This document shows, in pieces, positions 2,120 to 10,566 of a DNA stretch of 64,000 bases. The notes under the pieces are model-generated. The model was not told the origin of the DNA. It was given only the letters and a program-made list of their open reading frames with translations, and searched no databases. A program made the position numbers and the translations under genes. The stretch is from Olivibacter jilunii. GTDB taxonomy: Bacteria > Bacteroidota > Bacteroidia > Sphingobacteriales > Sphingobacteriaceae. The DNA lies in contig NZ_LR027854.1 in assembly GCF_900607235.1 (NCBI RefSeq), positions 1 to 64,000 of the forward strand, in the 5' to 3' direction. The stretch's first letter is position 1; each line of letters begins with the position of its first letter.

Positions 2120-3292
2120 TCATTTTGTTTTATATTTCGCATTCAATAGATTCAACATGGAAATCAGAACCGCGGAGACCTTGTTCACAACGTCTTTATC
2201 GGGTCGGGTATACTTACTCCTTATGCTTCCAATAGAGATATTGTCTTTTCGTGTTGTGCCTACATGGTTGACCAGAAACTCGTTGAGGTCTTTCCGGTGC
2301 CTGACAATAACCACTCCCGTCTCGGTAAACAGGCGGAAAAGAAAAATCAGTTGTGAAACAGTCAGCGACACATGAAAATAATAAGGATAAACCGCCCGAC
2401 CTAGTTTACCGAATATAGTTGACCTATGGAGCTTTTCTTTCTTTTTTACGTACCTGATCTGCTCGATAACATATTCCATCAGCTGTGTCCTGATATCTTT
2501 CATACTATCATCATAACAGATATCCCGGCAGACAATAAATGCACTTAAATTCCTGCGATAGTCCAGCCATTCCCGCCGTTCCTGTAAATAAGTATCAACA
2601 CCCTGAATCTGGTTATGCATATAACGCACATAATAGGAAAAGAAAGAAGGATGGTTGAAATTGAGACGGAAGAGGTTCTGCAGTATATCCTGTCTGTATT
2701 CCACTGTTTTCCCCTTGTCGGTTATCCAACTGACCTCTGATGATACTATATCAAGATAAGAGAGATCCTGCCAGGTCATCTTTCTATCCATAACACCATT
2801 CTTTCCAACATTGAAAAATCCATTCAGAACATCAATTAATCCGGGATCTATTTTATTATGCTGCAGAGACTTTTTTATATTGAACCAGCGTTTGAGGATT
2901 TTGGTCATATAAAAGGGATATAATATTTGCGGGATAGCCATGTTCCGATCAAAATAATCGGGATAACGACTTTTGATCAATTCGATGAACCTGAACGAAC
3001 GTTTTATGACCACCCAAAGGACATACCTGTACTTTTTTCTCGCCTTTAAGGGCAGCTTGCCCTCATCGATGGTCTTTATCAGCAAGCCGGTCTTTTCCAA
3101 TAGTGAGGTAATATCCAATTGATAATGGTAAATGCAATTGTGGAGATTTTCCGTATCACTACCTTCGAGTACATGCCGGATCTTTCCATATAGCGCATCA
3201 AAATATTGTTTTATCGTTCTGATCTGTCCAAAATGGTCTATAACGCTATCTCCGGATAAAGCGACATTCTGATCACAAGTCAAATGTTCCAT
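2120..3292 (-). CDS. RteC-like regulatory protein
   Basis: A 390-residue, helix-rich soluble protein resembling the RteC group of Bacteroidetes mobile elements; in CTnDOT, RteC acts downstream of a two-component system to switch on excision. Visible marks are an NFNHPSFF segment near the middle and a C-terminal block (LTVSQLIFLFRLFTETGVV, then a conserved I-S-x-x-S-(I/L)-RS). A second gene in this window (29972-31120) has the matching marks NFNHAHF and LSVDQYGILLRAAD, so both belong to one family. It follows the kinase, LytTR regulator and 98-aa genes, and its start lies inside the preceding gene (20-bp overlap), pointing to coupled translation. The RteC assignment is from recognised pattern and context, not from a database match. 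Confidence 0.6.
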   Translation of the reverse strand: MEHLTCDQNVALSGDSVIDHFGQIRTIKQYFDALYGKIRHVLEGSDTENLHNCIYHYQLDITSLLEKTGLLIKTIDEGKLPLKARKKYRYVLWVVIKRSFRFIELIKSRYPDYFDRNMAIPQILYPFYMTKILKRWFNIKKSLQHNKIDPGLIDVLNGFFNVGKNGVMDRKMTWQDLSYLDIVSSEVSWITDKGKTVEYRQDILQNLFRLNFNHPSFFSYYVRYMHNQIQGVDTYLQERREWLDYRRNLSAFIVCRDICYDDSMKDIRTQLMEYVIEQIRYVKKKEKLHRSTIFGKLGRAVYPYYFHVSLTVSQLIFLFRLFTETGVVIVRHRKDLNEFLVNHVGTTRKDNISIGSIRSKYTRPDKDVVNKVSAVLISMLNLLNAKYKTK

Positions 3293-3569
3293 TTTCGTTT
3301 AGTTTTTCCTTATTAAGTCTCGTCCACCATTTCTCTAATATGTTGGTCATACTGGATTGGTATTTGTCAACCAATATATATCTTCTTGGTGCCCCATGAA
3401 AGATCATGTCGGAATCAGTATTTTCCAGACTTGAAAAATACTGCTGCAACGCCTGTTTATAGGAAGTGAAATTTTCCCTGTAACCTTCCGAAACCAGCAT
3501 CTCATCTATGAGTGCATGGAGATCTTCCGGACAGGCTAATTGGTTTGATCTGGCATATATTTTCATCAT
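3273..3569 (-). CDS. Conserved-looking 98-aa protein between LytTR regulator and RteC-like gene
   Basis: A small soluble protein, acidic in the first half and with a basic, Trp-containing end (ILEKWWTRLNKEKL). No signal peptide, membrane segment or known motif. It starts 4 bp after the LytTR gene and overlaps the RteC-like gene by 20 bp, so it is clearly part of the operon. The start could be either of two adjacent ATGs (3569 or 3566). It could be a partner or modulator of the RteC-like protein, but nothing in the sequence proves it. Confidence 0.65.
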   Translation of the reverse strand: MMKIYARSNQLACPEDLHALIDEMLVSEGYRENFTSYKQALQQYFSSLENTDSDMIFHGAPRRYILVDKYQSSMTNILEKWWTRLNKEKLNENGTFDL

Positions 3570-3573
3570 GGCA

Positions 3574-4281
3574 TTAGTGTGGATATAGCGTCTTCAAAAC
3601 ATAATCCTTATATGTTCTTCCGATTTTAAGTGCTTTTTTGTTTTTAAGTTTTACCAGTCCTTCATCGATGACATCAATCATTTTGATCGATACAATGTAA
3701 GATCGGTGTATACGTATAAATCCGTCGGTCACGCGTAGTTCCGGTTCAATATCATCCATACGCATGGCAGATACCACAAATTCATCGTGCGCATGGAATA
3801 CTACATCATTTCCCCTTGCCGCAATGTAAATGATGTCACTGAAATCTATTTTCTTCAGTTTGCCCTTGTGTTCAACCTGTACAAAGATGTAATCGTTTTT
3901 GACTACCGGTAGTTCCAATGTTCTGTGCAATACCCTTTCTTTCAGCTTTTCCACAGCTTTTTCAAAACGGTCAAACTGTACGGGCTTCAACAGGTAGTCC
4001 ACGGCATTAAGTTCAATGCTCTCGATCGCGAATTCAGTATAGGCCGTACACACGATCACCTTGATCGAAGGATCAAGCCTGCGCATAACCTCCACACCTG
4101 TCATTTCGTCCATTTCCATATCAAGGAAAATTGCATGCACCTTCAGCTCACCCGCCATTTCCAATCCTTCAACGGGTCTGGTCGTTGTTCCGATCAGAGC
4201 AATATCGGGCACCAGCTTCAGGTAACGGCTGATCTGTTCCAACGCCGCAGGTTCATCATCAATGGCTATACAGTTTATCAT
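3574..4281 (-). CDS. LytTR-family response regulator
   Basis: 235 residues. The receiver domain occupies about residues 1-120, with the acidic pair D8/D9, phospho-acceptor D54 (IFLDMEM), T79 and K99 (DYLLKP) all present, so it should be phosphorylatable. The LytTR DNA-binding domain covers about residues 130-233 (FVQVEHKGKLKKIDFSDIIY, then FIRIHRSYIV). It is encoded 6 bp after the LytS-type kinase, its obvious partner. LytTR regulators of the AgrA/ComE type bind direct repeats spaced 21-22 bp, and such repeats exist at 6938-6986 upstream of this operon, so autoregulation is a reasonable inference. Confidence 0.93.
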   Translation of the reverse strand: MINCIAIDDEPAALEQISRYLKLVPDIALIGTTTRPVEGLEMAGELKVHAIFLDMEMDEMTGVEVMRRLDPSIKVIVCTAYTEFAIESIELNAVDYLLKPVQFDRFEKAVEKLKERVLHRTLELPVVKNDYIFVQVEHKGKLKKIDFSDIIYIAARGNDVVFHAHDEFVVSAMRMDDIEPELRVTDGFIRIHRSYIVSIKMIDVIDEGLVKLKNKKALKIGRTYKDYVLKTLYPH

Positions 4282-4287
4282 AGCTGG

Positions 4288-5355
4288 TTATTTGGGATTA
4301 TCTAAAAAATCAATAAACAGCTCAACGGTATACGTATTGTCCTCCTCGGTGCGTGTCATTGTTGCCCGCTCTCTAAAAGCACCTTTTAACCGTCTTTCCA
4401 CATTCTTTAGCCCGATATGGTTGGCCGAGGTATCCAATTTTCCGGCGCCTCTTTTTTTATTGGTGCAGTAGAAATAGATTCTGTTACGGTCAACCGCGAT
4501 CTTGATCTGCAAAGGGTACATCGGATCTGACAGGTCACCATATTTAAAGGCATTTTCTACAAGCGTTATAAAGGACAATGGCGGGATTGAATGCAGATAG
4601 GGATCGCCATTGAATTCATAATGGAACTGTTTTCCGCCACCAAATCGCCTTCTGTTGATTTCCAGATAGATTTCAAGGTATTCGAGCTCTTTGTGTACCG
4701 GAACCAATTGTTTGCCCTTGATGGCATTGTCAAGCGAGTAGCGCATCATGATGGAAAGCAGGTAAATACTTTCGGCCAAAGACTTGGATAGAGCGAGTGC
4801 TTCGGTATAGATGAAATTAAGGGTGTTGTGCAGAAAGTGCGGATTGACCTGGGCCCTTAAAAAAGCCTGTTCATACTCGAACTTTTCACGCTCCATTTCG
4901 TAATGGGCCTTTTCCATCCGGCGCTTATACGCCAGATCGGCAAACCATTTGAGCACAAAGTACAGGATAATGGCATAGCTGGCGTATTTAATATAGGGAG
5001 AAAGTATGTTACGCAGGTACAGACTGATTGTAAACGGGACACCTTCATAGTACAGCCTGATCCCGAATAACGGGAACACATTATATACGGCAAGATAGCC
5101 AAGTGCTGCAAGGATCAAAAAGACCGATGCAATCATCAGGATGACGGTACCGAGATTGGTTTTCCTGTTTTCGATAAATTTAAAGAGAAAGAAGTTGCTG
5201 TAAAATACTATTGCGTACAGGAAACAGAGTCCGATAATGTGAAAATAATCGACATGGTCTATTTTGGGCAGGTTATAGATATATACAAACTGGATATAGA
5301 TTACCCAGCAGAGAATATTGAACAGGAATGGATGTTTACGGAAAAAAGCGACCAT
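4288..5355 (-). CDS. LytS/YehU-type sensor histidine kinase
   Basis: With ATG 5355 this is a 355-residue kinase. It has four predicted membrane segments (about 10-28, 38-58, 68-92, 118-140), a short coiled linker, the His_kinase motif NPHFLHN with the phospho-acceptor at H173, an N-box (LVENAFKYG) and a G-box (HIGLKNVERRL). There is no large periplasmic domain, so a signal would be sensed in or near the membrane, as in AgrC/ComD-like kinases. An upstream ATG at 5472, only 7 bp after the acyltransferase stop, would add 39 residues. I prefer 5355 because family members normally begin just before the first membrane segment, but the tight operon spacing favours 5472. Confidence 0.9.
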   Translation of the reverse strand: MVAFFRKHPFLFNILCWVIYIQFVYIYNLPKIDHVDYFHIIGLCFLYAIVFYSNFFLFKFIENRKTNLGTVILMIASVFLILAALGYLAVYNVFPLFGIRLYYEGVPFTISLYLRNILSPYIKYASYAIILYFVLKWFADLAYKRRMEKAHYEMEREKFEYEQAFLRAQVNPHFLHNTLNFIYTEALALSKSLAESIYLLSIMMRYSLDNAIKGKQLVPVHKELEYLEIYLEINRRRFGGGKQFHYEFNGDPYLHSIPPLSFITLVENAFKYGDLSDPMYPLQIKIAVDRNRIYFYCTNKKRGAGKLDTSANHIGLKNVERRLKGAFRERATMTRTEEDNTYTVELFIDFLDNPK

Positions 5356-5479
5356 ATCTTCCGGTTTTTTTGGTTCATCATACCACAATATAAAGATATT
5401 GGGCCACTTTCCATAAAAAATTGAACAAAGAAAATCATTTTCCCGTTCCTTAAAGGTTCCTATTGATTGCATGATGTTT

Positions 5480-6616
5480 TTATTGGATCTCTAAAACCAC
5501 CCTATTTGTTACAAGACTACCCATGCGGTTACGCTTCAGCATGGCTACGGTATAGGCATAGTCTTGCATGTAAATCCCTATTAATCTCTGATATAGCCAA
5601 CGTTCGATCTCAAAGCATTGGTAATTGCTTTTTCGGAAAAGAAAATACTTGCCGTAGACGGAGAAAAAGCTATAATCCTGCTCATTGAACCTTACCTGCC
5701 TTTTCTTCTTTCCCTCCGCTCGGATTGGCAAGGACTCCTGTTCGGGGATCGGGTTTGTAATTCCGGCGTGCTCGTGCAGGTATAGCCATGCCTCCCATTG
5801 CCACGGCTTTTTTTCCACCGCCTTTTCGAGGTACTTATAAATTCGTGAAATAGCCTGTTCTGCAAACACCTGTCTGTTCAGCTTTTTATCAGGCAAAATT
5901 GGCCGGAAAAAATCCAGGCAGGGTACGTACTTCCATTGCCTTGTAGAGATCACGGGATATATCGGTACTGAAGTGAGGTGGGAAATAAAGGCTGCTCCTG
6001 CCCTTGCCCTGATCTGCTGGTTCAGGAAAGGAATGGATAGCAGGTTATGGCCGGAGCGCTCATCGCCTGTTCCGGTATTGCCGTCAGCATAAATCAATAT
6101 GCTTTTTCCCTTTCTCAATTCTCTGGTTATTCTGAACAGGCTGTTGCTATCATTGGCGTCTATTAGGTCGAGGCCGAGCATCTGCCGTTGACGTTCATCG
6201 TATTTCCGGCTTGCCAGTTCATCCTCCCGTTGTAAACCGTCTTTTGAAACGAGCAGTACAAAGGATATACCGTTCTCTGCAAGATAATGCCCGATCATTC
6301 TGAAAGACCCGCTGTGAAAGGTGCAGATAATGCCTGGCCTATCTTTGATGTCCTGTAAGGTATAACCGTGGAAACGTACTTTAAGCTTATCCGGTAGGCC
6401 GGAAATATATTGCTCGGCATACGTCCGTTTCTGGTTCTCCAGCAGCCTTATGAAATTCGGTTCATGTTCCCGGTATTCAAGGGAAGGAAGGAAATTGTGG
6501 AAACTCGCGCTCACCACCTGAAATTTGTACCATAATGAACTGATCGGTGCGAAACGGTTATTTTCATGGCCGGAAGTAAAAAATCCGGCAGGTATTATTA
6601 ACTTGTCCTTAACCAT
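5480..6616 (-). CDS. LpxL/HtrB-like acyltransferase (divergent)
   Basis: About 378 residues resembling the lauroyl/myristoyl acyltransferase (LABLAT) fold: CTFHSGSFRMIG carries the catalytic-type His (H101 with the 6616 start), followed by IYADGNTGTG and AGAAFISHLTSVPIYPVI, the usual acceptor/acyl-site region. The family motif is HX4(D/E), but the acidic residue is Arg here, so either catalysis differs or activity is lost. I chose ATG 6616 (MVKDKLIIPAG) because ATG 6646 lies inside a stem-loop. It follows a 42-residue peptide gene and precedes the kinase, so its substrate may be that peptide rather than lipid A; this is inference. Possible alternatives are lipid A or another lipid acylation. 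Confidence 0.7.
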   Translation of the reverse strand: MVKDKLIIPAGFFTSGHENNRFAPISSLWYKFQVVSASFHNFLPSLEYREHEPNFIRLLENQKRTYAEQYISGLPDKLKVRFHGYTLQDIKDRPGIICTFHSGSFRMIGHYLAENGISFVLLVSKDGLQREDELASRKYDERQRQMLGLDLIDANDSNSLFRITRELRKGKSILIYADGNTGTGDERSGHNLLSIPFLNQQIRARAGAAFISHLTSVPIYPVISTRQWKYVPCLDFFRPILPDKKLNRQVFAEQAISRIYKYLEKAVEKKPWQWEAWLYLHEHAGITNPIPEQESLPIRAEGKKKRQVRFNEQDYSFFSVYGKYFLFRKSNYQCFEIERWLYQRLIGIYMQDYAYTVAMLKRNRMGSLVTNRVVLEIQ

Positions 6617-6630
6617 AACCTGAAAAATTG

Positions 6631-6656
6631 GCCCGACGGTATACATACCATCGGGC
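6631..6656 (-). terminator. Stem-loop terminator/attenuator between peptide gene and acyltransferase
   Basis: Arms GCCCGACGGTAT (6631-6642) and ATACCATCGGGC (6645-6656) pair over 12 bp with one wobble. Read on the minus strand it is followed by CAATTTTTC. It lies 15 bp after the stop of the 42-aa gene, so most transcripts would end here and some read through into the acyltransferase and kinase genes. This gives a high peptide-to-enzyme ratio, as is usual for precursor-peptide operons. Confidence 0.7.
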
Positions 6657-6670
6657 AGTGAAACTGTTTA

Positions 6671-6799
6671 CTAAAGCCCTTCATAAGGGATGCATTTATC
6701 TTTTTTTTCTGCTACTTCCATGAGAATTGCCAGTGCGGTCAGCGTAATCGGTGCGCTGAAAAGCCTGCCTGTCCATGATATTCCTCTTTTACGTTTCAT
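6671..6799 (-). CDS. 42-aa peptide, candidate signal or precursor peptide
   Basis: An ATG at 6799 opens a 42-codon frame with a basic N-terminus (MKRKRGISWTG), a hydrophobic stretch (SAPITLTALAILME), a charged linker and a C-terminus with a single Cys (KCIPYEGL). The layout resembles secreted or membrane-associated pheromone and modified-peptide precursors. It is the first gene of a minus-strand operon: an attenuator follows, then an acyltransferase, a LytS kinase and a LytTR regulator. Phased direct repeats of the LytTR type lie about 140-190 bp upstream. It was too short for standard ORF calling. No family is recognised; coding status rests on context, length and peptide-like composition. 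Confidence 0.6.
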   Translation of the reverse strand: MKRKRGISWTGRLFSAPITLTALAILMEVAEKKDKCIPYEGL

Positions 6800-6859
6800 T
6801 TTTTTGATATTTTTTAAAACCATTGCCTACTCTGATCAAGGGTTTTCGGTTACGCCCTA

Positions 6860-6873
6860 CTTATGGCCATAAG
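6860..6873. promoter_or_regulatory. 14-bp perfect palindrome upstream of peptide gene
   Basis: CTTATGGCCATAAG lies about 60 bp upstream of the 42-aa peptide start. A perfect palindrome in an otherwise gene-free stretch suggests a dimer-binding operator; the protein is unknown. Confidence 0.4.
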
Positions 6874-6937
6874 GTTCTCTTGGGATATCCGTTGTCGAAT
6901 TTCGGGTGCGGTATAGGTAATTTCAATCAACTTGGTT

Positions 6938-6986
6938 TGAATGACAGGATTCTATATGTGAATGTCGCTTTTCTACATGTGAATGT
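6938..6986 (-). promoter_or_regulatory. 21-bp phased direct repeats, likely LytTR regulator box
   Basis: Two 15-bp repeats, TCTATATGTGAATGT (6951-6965) and TCTACATGTGAATGT (6972-6986), match at 14 of 15 positions and start exactly 21 bp apart. A third partial copy sharing TGAATG (6938-6943) keeps the same 21-bp phase. On the minus strand the core reads ACATTCACAT. LytTR regulators (ComE, AgrA) bind such two-turn-spaced direct repeats. The box lies upstream of the peptide-kinase-regulator operon and is the best candidate site for the regulator at 3574-4281. Confidence 0.6.
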
Positions 6987-7044
6987 TTTGGACGGTTTTT
7001 TCGATCATTCACGGCACATATTCCGTCTATTTTTAGTAATACAT

Positions 7045-7076
7045 TTGTATTTACTAAATATTTTAGTATAAATTTG
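7045..7076 (+). promoter_or_regulatory. dinB promoter with palindromic operator
   Basis: A Bacteroidetes-type promoter: TTG (7045-7047), a 21-nt spacer, then TAAATTTG (7069-7076). The spacer contains the perfect palindrome ACTAAA-TAT-TTTAGT (7053-7067), and a further half-site TTAGTAA sits just upstream. A closely related palindrome occupies the same place in the imuA promoter (31436-31450). Such overlap between -33 and -7 fits a repressor. Confidence 0.65.
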
Positions 7077-7102
7077 TGATTAAAATCTAACTTAAGTGAG
7101 GT

Positions 7103-7623
7103 ATGGTAACAGGAGAACGAAATATTATCCACATGGATCAAGATGCCTTTTTCGTAGCAGTAGAGGTACGTAAAAACCCCAAATTGAAAGGCGCTCCCGT
7201 TATTATCGGTGGTACTTCCGATCGTGGTGTTTTGGCGAGTTGCAGTTATGAAGCACGTAAATATGGTGTACACTCTGCCATGCCTTCCCGTGTGGCCAGA
7301 CAGCTCTGCCCTCATGCCATTTTTATCAGGGGCAACATAGAAGAATACAGCAAGACCAGCCATGCGATAACGGATATACTTAAAGAAAAAGTACCGCTAT
7401 TGGAAAAAGCGTCTATTGACGAACATTATATAAATATGAGCGGGATGGAACGTTTTTTCGGTTGCATGAAATTTGCCCGTGAACTAAGGGAGAAAATCAT
7501 AAAGGAAACGCATCTGCCGATTTCTTTTGGCCTTTCTATTAAAAAGACTGTCAGTAAAATGGCTACAGACGAATGTAAGGCCCAGTGGTGAAAAACAGGT
7601 CGAGAAGCAAGCTGTCCGGCCCA
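7103..7623 (+). pseudogene. dinB: DNA polymerase IV, truncated and frameshifted
   Basis: The first 162 codons give the N-terminal palm and fingers of a Y-family polymerase, with catalytic motifs HMDQDAFF and SIDEHY intact. After ...SKMATDECKA the frame shifts and stops at 7591. The shifted frame continues as SGEKQVEKQAVRP, still polymerase-like, to about 7620. There the sequence switches to the 3' end of an Rpn-family gene. A normal Pol IV has 350-390 residues; the thumb and little-finger domains are lost, so it cannot work as a polymerase. Its promoter and operator are intact, so a truncated product may still be made when the system is induced. Confidence 0.85.
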
Positions 7624-7746
7624 GAAGCAAAAGGTGAACTAAAAGGAGGAATTGCCATTGCCCGTGAGCTAAAAAAAGAAGGTTTGGCACTTGACTTCAT
7701 TGCAAAAACTACTAAGCTTCCCATTGGAGAAATCTAGAAGTTGTAA
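7624..7746 (+). pseudogene. 3' fragment of an Rpn-family nuclease gene
   Basis: Translation gives EAKGELKGGIAIAREL and continues ...FIAKTTKLPIGEI up to a stop. This matches the last ~40 residues of the intact Rpn-family protein at 9739-10566, with a few substitutions, so it derives from a related but not identical copy. The DNA similarity continues past the stop through the shared 3' flank. It is joined directly to the broken dinB. Confidence 0.8.
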
Positions 7747-9555: not shown

Positions 9556-9738
9556 TTCATTTTATAGGCAATATGTATGAGCATACCTTTAAACTTTTAG
9601 AAATTTTTTATCAGGTCTACTTTTATTCTTACCGTTTGCCGTAACACCAACCGTTCGTCTTCGTAATATTTTTCTTAACAACAAGAGCTAATATAGATAA
9701 ATCTATTCCGTCTAACATAAAAATCCCTAACTTTGTAC

Positions 9739-10566
9739 ATGCCCGATAAAAAGGAGAACCAAAGCCGCAGGCAGACAAACCAATACGACAAAATACTGCG
9801 AGAAAATCTTGAAATCACCCTTCCCGTCATTATTAAGGAGATTTTGGGTCTAGACATAGTCAAAAGTGAAGAGCTACCGGATGATGTTCAACATACAAAA
9901 GAAAGGAAGCCCGACGCCTTAAAGAAAGTAACAGATGTGGCGGGCAATACATTTGTACTGCATGTGGAATTTCAGGTAAAAGAGGAGAGTGATATGGTTT
10001 TTCGGATGCTTGAGTATTACGCCATGCTGGCGCGCAGGTATCGTCTTCCGATACGGCAGTATGTTGTTTTTTTGGGGGATGCCGATCCACGAATGTCCAC
10101 GGAAATAGATACAGTCCACATGAAATTTAGCTATGAGCTTATTTCCGTTCGAAAAGCAAATTATCGCCTATTTCTAAAATCTGACAATCCGGAAGTAAAA
10201 ATGTTGGGAATTTTAGGTAACTTTGGAAGTGGTGACAGTTATCTTGTTGTAAAAGAGATTATCGAGGGCGTGAAATCGCATACAACAGGAGATTTTGCAG
10301 AGAGCAGGTATTTCAAGCAATTACGTATCTTTGTACAATTACGTAGCAGTCTGGAACAACAATTTGAAAAAGCTATGGAAACAGTAAGCAAATTTTTTAA
10401 GGAAGAGAAAGATTTTCTTTATCGCAAAGGTGAGGCAAAAGGAGAAGCAAAAGGCAAGCATAAGAAAGCTATTGATATTGCCCGTGAGCTAAAAAAAGAA
10501 GGTTTGGCACTTGACTTCATTGCAAAAACCACTAAGCTTCCCATTGAAGAAATCGAGAAGTTGTAA
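9739..10566 (+). CDS. Rpn-family recombination-promoting nuclease / PD-(D/E)XK transposase-like protein
   Basis: 275 residues from ATG 9739 (a TTG at 9733 is less likely). The N-terminal nuclease core has KPDA (D59) and HVEFQ (E77, Q79), the PD-(D/E)XK residues of the Rpn/YhgA family. The C-terminus has a short EAKG repeat and a helical tail ending FIAKTTKLPIEEIEKL, the family's usual flexible end. These proteins are DNA endonucleases that stimulate recombination in E. coli; the Bacteroidetes versions are often abundant and multicopy. A 3' fragment of a sister copy lies at 7624-7746. A strong terminator follows. Confidence 0.85.
   Translation: MPDKKENQSRRQTNQYDKILRENLEITLPVIIKEILGLDIVKSEELPDDVQHTKERKPDALKKVTDVAGNTFVLHVEFQVKEESDMVFRMLEYYAMLARRYRLPIRQYVVFLGDADPRMSTEIDTVHMKFSYELISVRKANYRLFLKSDNPEVKMLGILGNFGSGDSYLVVKEIIEGVKSHTTGDFAESRYFKQLRIFVQLRSSLEQQFEKAMETVSKFFKEEKDFLYRKGEAKGEAKGKHKKAIDIARELKKEGLALDFIAKTTKLPIEEIEKL

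Follow-up and report, generated by a model that had tools for sequence, protein, structure and literature searches.

A conserved 42-codon gene beside a divergent acyltransferase in Olivibacter and its relatives as a candidate precursor of Cys-tail signalling peptides

The window, by which we mean the whole 64,000-nucleotide stretch of Olivibacter jilunii DNA that was analysed, carries on its reverse strand a very small gene followed by genes for an acyltransferase, a histidine kinase and a response regulator. The small gene (6671..6799, –) encodes a peptide of 42 amino acids, MKRKRGISWTGRLFSAPITLTALAILMEVAEKKDKCIPYEGL, in which a basic N-terminus is followed by a hydrophobic middle, a charged stretch and the C-terminal tail KCIPYEGL. 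An earlier note on this DNA had pointed to an overlooked 42-codon gene at this place with one Cys near its C-terminus. The single Cys is indeed seen (codon 6692..6694, –), seven residues from the end. When the window peptide and other sampled peptides were scanned against Pfam and NCBIfam, nothing exceeded a cut-off.

A homologue search of 41 genomes revealed a 71% identical copy of the peptide elsewhere in the same genome, two further copies in a congener (67% and 64% identity) and, on contig C9, another that is more divergent. The C-terminus of all these copies reads [DE]KCIPYEG[L/F], with the KCIPYEG[L/F] tail invariant, and in all close copies the same acyltransferase lies directly 3′ of the peptide gene. 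Both close copies in this genome possess the full kinase and regulator set; in the congener, one copy has a transposase 3′ of the kinase and the other is truncated by a transposase within the acyltransferase. Among the four copies of equal length, dN ranges from 0.05 to 0.23 and dS from 0.46 to 1.04, and the differences at codon positions 1, 2 and 3 number 40, 41 and 85. The earlier note had named Ka/Ks on homologues as a check and frameshifts or stops in orthologous loci as evidence against the gene; dN/dS is about 0.1–0.4 in the close copies, and the orthologues hold the frame. Given these ratios, the third-position excess and the homologues in other genomes, the ORF is not a product of chance. 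It is a real, conserved gene under purifying selection. We prefer the 42-residue start to a 50-residue ORF beginning at 6823, as the upstream ATG is lost or followed by a stop in the close copies.

Between the peptide gene and the acyltransferase lies a hairpin (6631..6656, –) of 11 pairs, seven of them G-C, with a 4-nt loop and followed by CAATTTTTCA. It starts 14 nt past the peptide stop and represents a putative attenuator or 3′-end stabiliser, in agreement with the terminator-type stem-loop and T-run that the earlier note had described here. The region 5400–7200 contains no other terminator-like site, and since shuffles give 2.1 such sites, the window hairpin on its own is not beyond chance. 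It gains significance from its conservation in the close copies and throughout the class described below. Compensating changes preserve the stem in all five close copies, whereas only the window has a strong T-run and the other four have a weak one. Class-wide, 69 of 82 loci have a stem of at least 7 bp 3′ of the peptide gene, where shuffles give 8.2, and in 32 of the 82 the stem is followed by at least four T within the next 8 nt, where shuffles give 0.9. The stem begins a median of 11 nt past the stop, and the folding energy between peptide gene and acyltransferase lies below that of shuffles, with a median z of –3.9. The natural reading of this element would be attenuation, or stabilisation of the 3′ end of the peptide message. 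The hairpin also bears on where the enzyme begins. The ATG at 6646 falls within it and is not conserved, whereas a start at 6616, which had been proposed in place of 6646, is favoured because it aligns with the homologues’ starts just past the hairpin.

The acyltransferase itself (5480..6616, –; 378 aa) is a divergent member of the LPLAT family (Lip_A_acyltrans, PF03279; 1.7e-7, 31.2 bits against a cutoff of 22.3) and the proposed maturase of the peptide. Its AF2 model has a pLDDT of 80, and the top PDB matches of this model in Foldseek are LpxM (5kn7; 4.5e-12) and PatA (about 1e-9). The window family shares with LpxL, LpxM and PatA the fold and the catalytic His of the HX4D/E motif, which is kept in 93 of the 94 LPLATs from kinase-linked loci. 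It differs in the acid of that motif, which in the window enzyme is replaced to give HX4R; the five commonest residues at this +5 position are R (55), Q (12), A (8), M (4) and L (4), none of them D or E (n=94). The Asp of a YxDG motif is invariant in the family (94/94 and 34/34). A further difference lies in the genomic context, as the family nearly always adjoins a small peptide gene and not a gene of the lipid A pathway. We rejected an ordinary lipid A enzyme on the basis of HX4R and the near-constant peptide partner, and the family may modify peptides rather than lipids. Without the acid of the HX4D/E dyad, acyl transfer may be altered or absent. In three loci (L137, L142 and L170), LPLAT homologues follow the end of an apparent agmatinase/arginase-family gene, recognised by eye, and no Cys-tail peptide was found there; this context is possibly another use of the enzyme.

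HX4R also suggests that the LPLAT may be non-catalytic, and the basic N-terminus and hydrophobic middle of the Olivibacter copies could form a membrane helix. Both features would suit a small regulatory membrane protein that is never exported or modified and acts inside the cell as a partner or inhibitor of the LPLAT or the kinase. We regard this as quite improbable, because the LPLAT His and the YxDG Asp are nearly invariant and because distant peptides share the Cys tail but not the hydrophobic-helix layout.

Downstream of the acyltransferase, the window encodes a LytS-type membrane histidine kinase (4288..5472, –; PF06580), the proposed receptor, whose acceptor His is aligned in 85 of 85 kinases, and a response regulator (3574..4281, –) with a receiver and a LytTR DNA-binding domain. 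The LytTR domain (PF04397) was found in the regulators of the window and of locus L012. The operon showed neither an exporter gene nor a gene for a leader protease. In Olivibacter-group copies, the regulator is followed by a protein of about 400 residues and of unknown function. The window holds an N-terminal fragment of this protein (3273..3569, –; 98 aa, 47% identity to residues 1–87 of the 401-aa protein of L009) and a relative of it (2120..3292, –; 390 aa, residues 25–387 matching 37–400 of the L009 protein), which gave no Pfam hit. Since the fragment and the relative cover overlapping parts of the protein, two copies may have recombined.

On the other side of the peptide gene, three CATTCA direct repeats (6938..6985, –; 6980-6985, 6959-6964 and 6938-6943) occur at an exact 21-bp spacing and are candidate LytTR sites; the two upstream copies extend to about 10 bp. 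A repeat spacing of 20–21 bp is that of LytTR-family sites. The repeat region and the surrounding leader are strongly conserved as DNA in five close copies. When direct repeats were assessed by spacing alone, 10-bp repeats with at least 9 matches were found upstream of the peptide gene at a lag of 20 in 12 loci and at a lag of 21 in 20 (n=93). The expectation is 1.0 loci at each of these lags, and all other lags gave at most 5 loci. Nearer to the gene, 24 nt upstream of the peptide ATG, lies a structured 5′ leader element, the DUF805b RNA (Rfam RF02914; 6824..6859, –; 37.6 bits against a gathering threshold of 35.6, E 4e-9). It is also located upstream of the peptide in L002, L008, L011, L012, L023, L069 and L072; a role as universal leader is ruled out by its presence in 8 of the 34 regions scanned. 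Another clade (L079, L080, L081, L085, L086, L090, L099, L109, L110, L114 and L115) carries a different, two-stem RNA leader, CTTCA..GGCC.GAAGCCG followed by a stem with a GCGAGA loop. This leader shows compensatory changes in 6 of 11 pairs, and those of the two-stem leaders that were scanned gave no Rfam match.

These leaders bear on the possibility that the ORF is spurious and lies in a conserved non-coding leader with an attenuator or RNA element. The strong DNA conservation around it and the Rfam element just upstream are what such a reading would draw on. It is nevertheless exceedingly improbable in view of the third-position bias, the dN/dS values and the finding that Cys-tail ORFs occur behind unrelated leaders far beyond chance. 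The earlier note had taken a tiny gene and a partial terminator ahead of enzyme genes as the usual arrangement for precursor peptides. The small gene, the hairpin and the 6616 enzyme start hold up in the homologues, while the downstream acyltransferase and two-component system and the LytTR-like repeats upstream of the gene indicate a signalling peptide and not just any precursor.

To delimit the class, LPLAT homologues were gathered by profile search and 128 non-redundant ones were analysed; a narrower LPLAT alignment search gave eight loci. A LytS-type kinase adjoins the LPLAT in 94 of the 128, mostly in Sphingobacteriaceae, and a response regulator usually lies 3′ of the kinase where the available sequence reaches that far. 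Directly upstream of the LPLAT, 89 of the 94 kinase-linked loci possess a short ORF of the Cys-tail type, and 86 of these 89 peptides have the tail Cys. In the other five no recognised peptide was found; a transposase interrupts one of them, and another is an incomplete locus. With a fixed scored caller, 76 of 93 loci score at least 5, compared with 1.4 in dinucleotide shuffles and none either on the opposite strand or in the stretch upstream of the kinase. The observed count is somewhat optimistic because the scoring rule was written after the first peptides were known; the shuffle and strand controls apply the same rule. An earlier, looser Cys-tail test (82/127 against 23 expected) was dropped, as it was too permissive and mixed in Spirosomataceae. 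The window peptide is a member of an undescribed family of short peptides encoded beside a divergent acyltransferase and usually a kinase and regulator. The complete set looks like a peptide-signalling system in soil Bacteroidota.

The peptides of the kinase-linked loci have a median length of 45 aa. Among the 85 tallied peptides with a tail Cys, the Cys is preceded by K in 63 and by R in 7, and it is followed to the stop by five residues in 53, six in 19 and seven in 4 (76/85 in total). These residues are mostly hydrophobic, and the last one is F, L or I in 68 of 85. We counted 60 distinct tails, for instance CDFVIL, CDIEIL, CNIVFPF, CFFRTF, CPIVTP, CWIGSL and CKLYYI, and several versions often occur in one genome. 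The Olivibacter genome under study has five LPLAT loci, with the tails CIPYEGL (twice), CIPYEGF, CEYWDL and CPFEIF. In L113, L117 and L124, KKND or KKSD (KKNDLVWL, KKSDIIWL) replaces the Cys tail in otherwise complete peptide-LPLAT-kinase-regulator loci, with Asn at the position equivalent to Cys in L113 and L117 and Ser in L124. Modification of the Cys is thus not universal, and these three loci form a natural test of the role of the Cys. Acylation of Lys as a universal site was also considered and discarded: beyond the 63 of 85 peptides with Lys before the Cys, the position holds R, S, P, D, N, I or L, and the Cys is the more widely kept residue. Two side observations concern individual loci. 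Divergent Crp/Fnr-like regulator genes, recognised by eye, lie upstream in L019, L020, L021, L024 and L027 and are a possible target of the circuit. In genome G002, one copy of the system has apparently been split by insertion-element transposases into L011 and L026, about 75 kb apart, with the peptide and the LPLAT N-terminus at C1:5743393-5743912 and the LPLAT C-terminus and kinase from C1:5667536.

Correlated divergence was measured by partial Mantel tests over 84 loci. Peptide distances correlate with those of the kinase sensor (r=0.29, 0/500 permutations) and of the LPLAT (r=0.16, 0/500 permutations), with r=0.006 for the kinase domain (P 0.44). For the tail alone, the values are 0.24 for the LPLAT, 0.14 for the sensor and –0.06 for the kinase domain. 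This pattern fits a peptide that would contact both the enzyme and the receptor; in part it may reflect shared phylogeny, which is only partly controlled, or poor resolution in the conserved kinase domain.

Spirosomataceae, including Persicitalea, Arundinibacter and Rhabdobacter, carry the LPLAT without a kinase, mostly still beside a peptide of 50–65 aa with a leader-like N-terminus (MKK.F.IK..) and a core containing Cys or CysCys (SCY, SCF, CC). Loci with peptide and LPLAT were noted at L143, L127, L145, L130, L163, L135, L166 and L169. By their sequence features, these RiPP-like precursors are a second undescribed class of LPLAT-linked peptides. Because Spirosomataceae retain both genes without the kinase, the peptide with its LPLAT seems to be the minimal unit, which makes the LPLAT the best candidate for the modifying enzyme. 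The kinase-free loci would also suit a RiPP natural product, one that matures into an antimicrobial or some other metabolite while the kinase-regulator pair only regulates the cluster, and lipidated RiPPs do occur in Bacteroidota and cyanobacteria (PMC12636315, PMC13060382). We consider such a product unlikely, since the kinase follows in nearly every Sphingobacteriaceae case and neither an exporter nor an immunity gene was encountered, and since the tails show great diversity and the peptide diverges in step with the kinase sensor.

Comparing the module with described lipidated RiPPs, both those that depend on GNAT enzymes (selidamides, nostolysamides) and those of the lipoprotein pathway (Chryseobacterium ChrH-type), reveals a ribosomal precursor beside a modifying enzyme and a proposed lipidation in each case. 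However, the window enzyme is an LPLAT similar to LpxL, LpxM and PatA and not a GNAT or Lgt/Lsp/Lnt, its Cys tail has no lipobox, and the module is coupled to a two-component system. As expected of a RiPP, a short precursor is conserved beside a candidate modifying enzyme, and the window peptide may represent a new kind of RiPP.

On balance, we think it probable that the 42-codon gene codes for a pheromone precursor, whose secreted signalling product is matured by the LPLAT, sensed by the kinase and fed back through the regulator in an autoinducing circuit. The adjacent LPLAT-fold protein would mature the peptide, most likely by fatty-acylating the C-terminal Cys tail CIPYEGL, perhaps through S-acylation. 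After a presumed proteolysis and export, the matured peptide would leave the cell or partition into the membrane, where the LytS-type kinase could sense it and phosphorylate the LytTR regulator. Binding of the regulator to the repeats spaced by 20–21 bp upstream of the peptide gene would then lead to autoinduction. The hairpin, for its part, would let the peptide message exceed the downstream message for maturase, kinase and regulator.

The overall arrangement is reminiscent of the agr system of Bacillota (AgrB-AgrD-AgrC-AgrA). In both systems the precursor peptide is short and carries a Cys and hydrophobic residues, and a single operon contains the peptide, its maturase, a membrane histidine kinase and a LytTR regulator. 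The direct repeats about 21 bp apart upstream are as for AgrA, and we take Cys tails such as KCDFVIL and KCDIEIL to resemble staphylococcal AIPs. However, the window maturase has an LPLAT fold and is not an AgrB peptidase, the phylum is different, and the stop codon directly follows the Cys tail, leaving no C-terminal recognition tail. The LytS-type kinase (PF06580) also differs in class from AgrC. Among the genes adjoining the peptide, no AgrB-like gene was found, the partner being the Lip_A_acyltrans protein, and Pfam and NCBIfam scans of the window peptide and ten diverse members gave no AgrD match.

The AIP-like tails, together with the Ser at the same place in the Cys-less peptide of L124, raise the idea of an agr-like cyclisation, in which the LPLAT-fold protein would close a Cys thiolactone, or a Ser lactone, with the C-terminal carboxylate and add no fatty acyl group. 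Against it stand the lack of a C-terminal tail for exchange as in AgrD, the lack of AgrB or an evident energy source, a fold that is that of acyl-CoA/ACP transferases and the Asn at that place in L113 and L117. We therefore hold it to be improbable and retain acylation by the LPLAT as the favoured step of the pheromone circuit.

Bacillota are well known for peptide quorum sensing; to our knowledge, no counterpart has been described in Bacteroidota. In line with this, our search of open-licence PMC papers found no description of the peptide class and no Bacteroidota peptide quorum sensing. We see an even chance that the loci represent a new class of quorum sensing by peptides in Bacteroidota, built on Cys-tail pheromones lipidated or cyclised by the LPLAT, with a dedicated maturase, a LytS-type receptor, LytTR autoinduction and many specificities, and with the Spirosomataceae loci as a sister class of LPLAT-modified Cys peptides. 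The module supplies testable signal sequences (the 60 distinct tails) along with their receptors and promoters. Much of the class is probably unannotated, because genes of this length escape standard annotation and none of the sampled peptides matches a family model.

A separate observation concerns the neighbouring gene on the forward strand. An in-frame stop truncates a DinB/UmuC-type polymerase with an IMS domain (7103-7591, +) at 162 aa, whereas its L012 homologue is complete, with 386 aa and IMS_C. The ORF at 7585-7737 shares the terminal sequence KKEGLALDFIAKTTKLPI with the C-terminus of the ORF at 9733-10566, which indicates that a duplication or insertion probably broke the polymerase gene.
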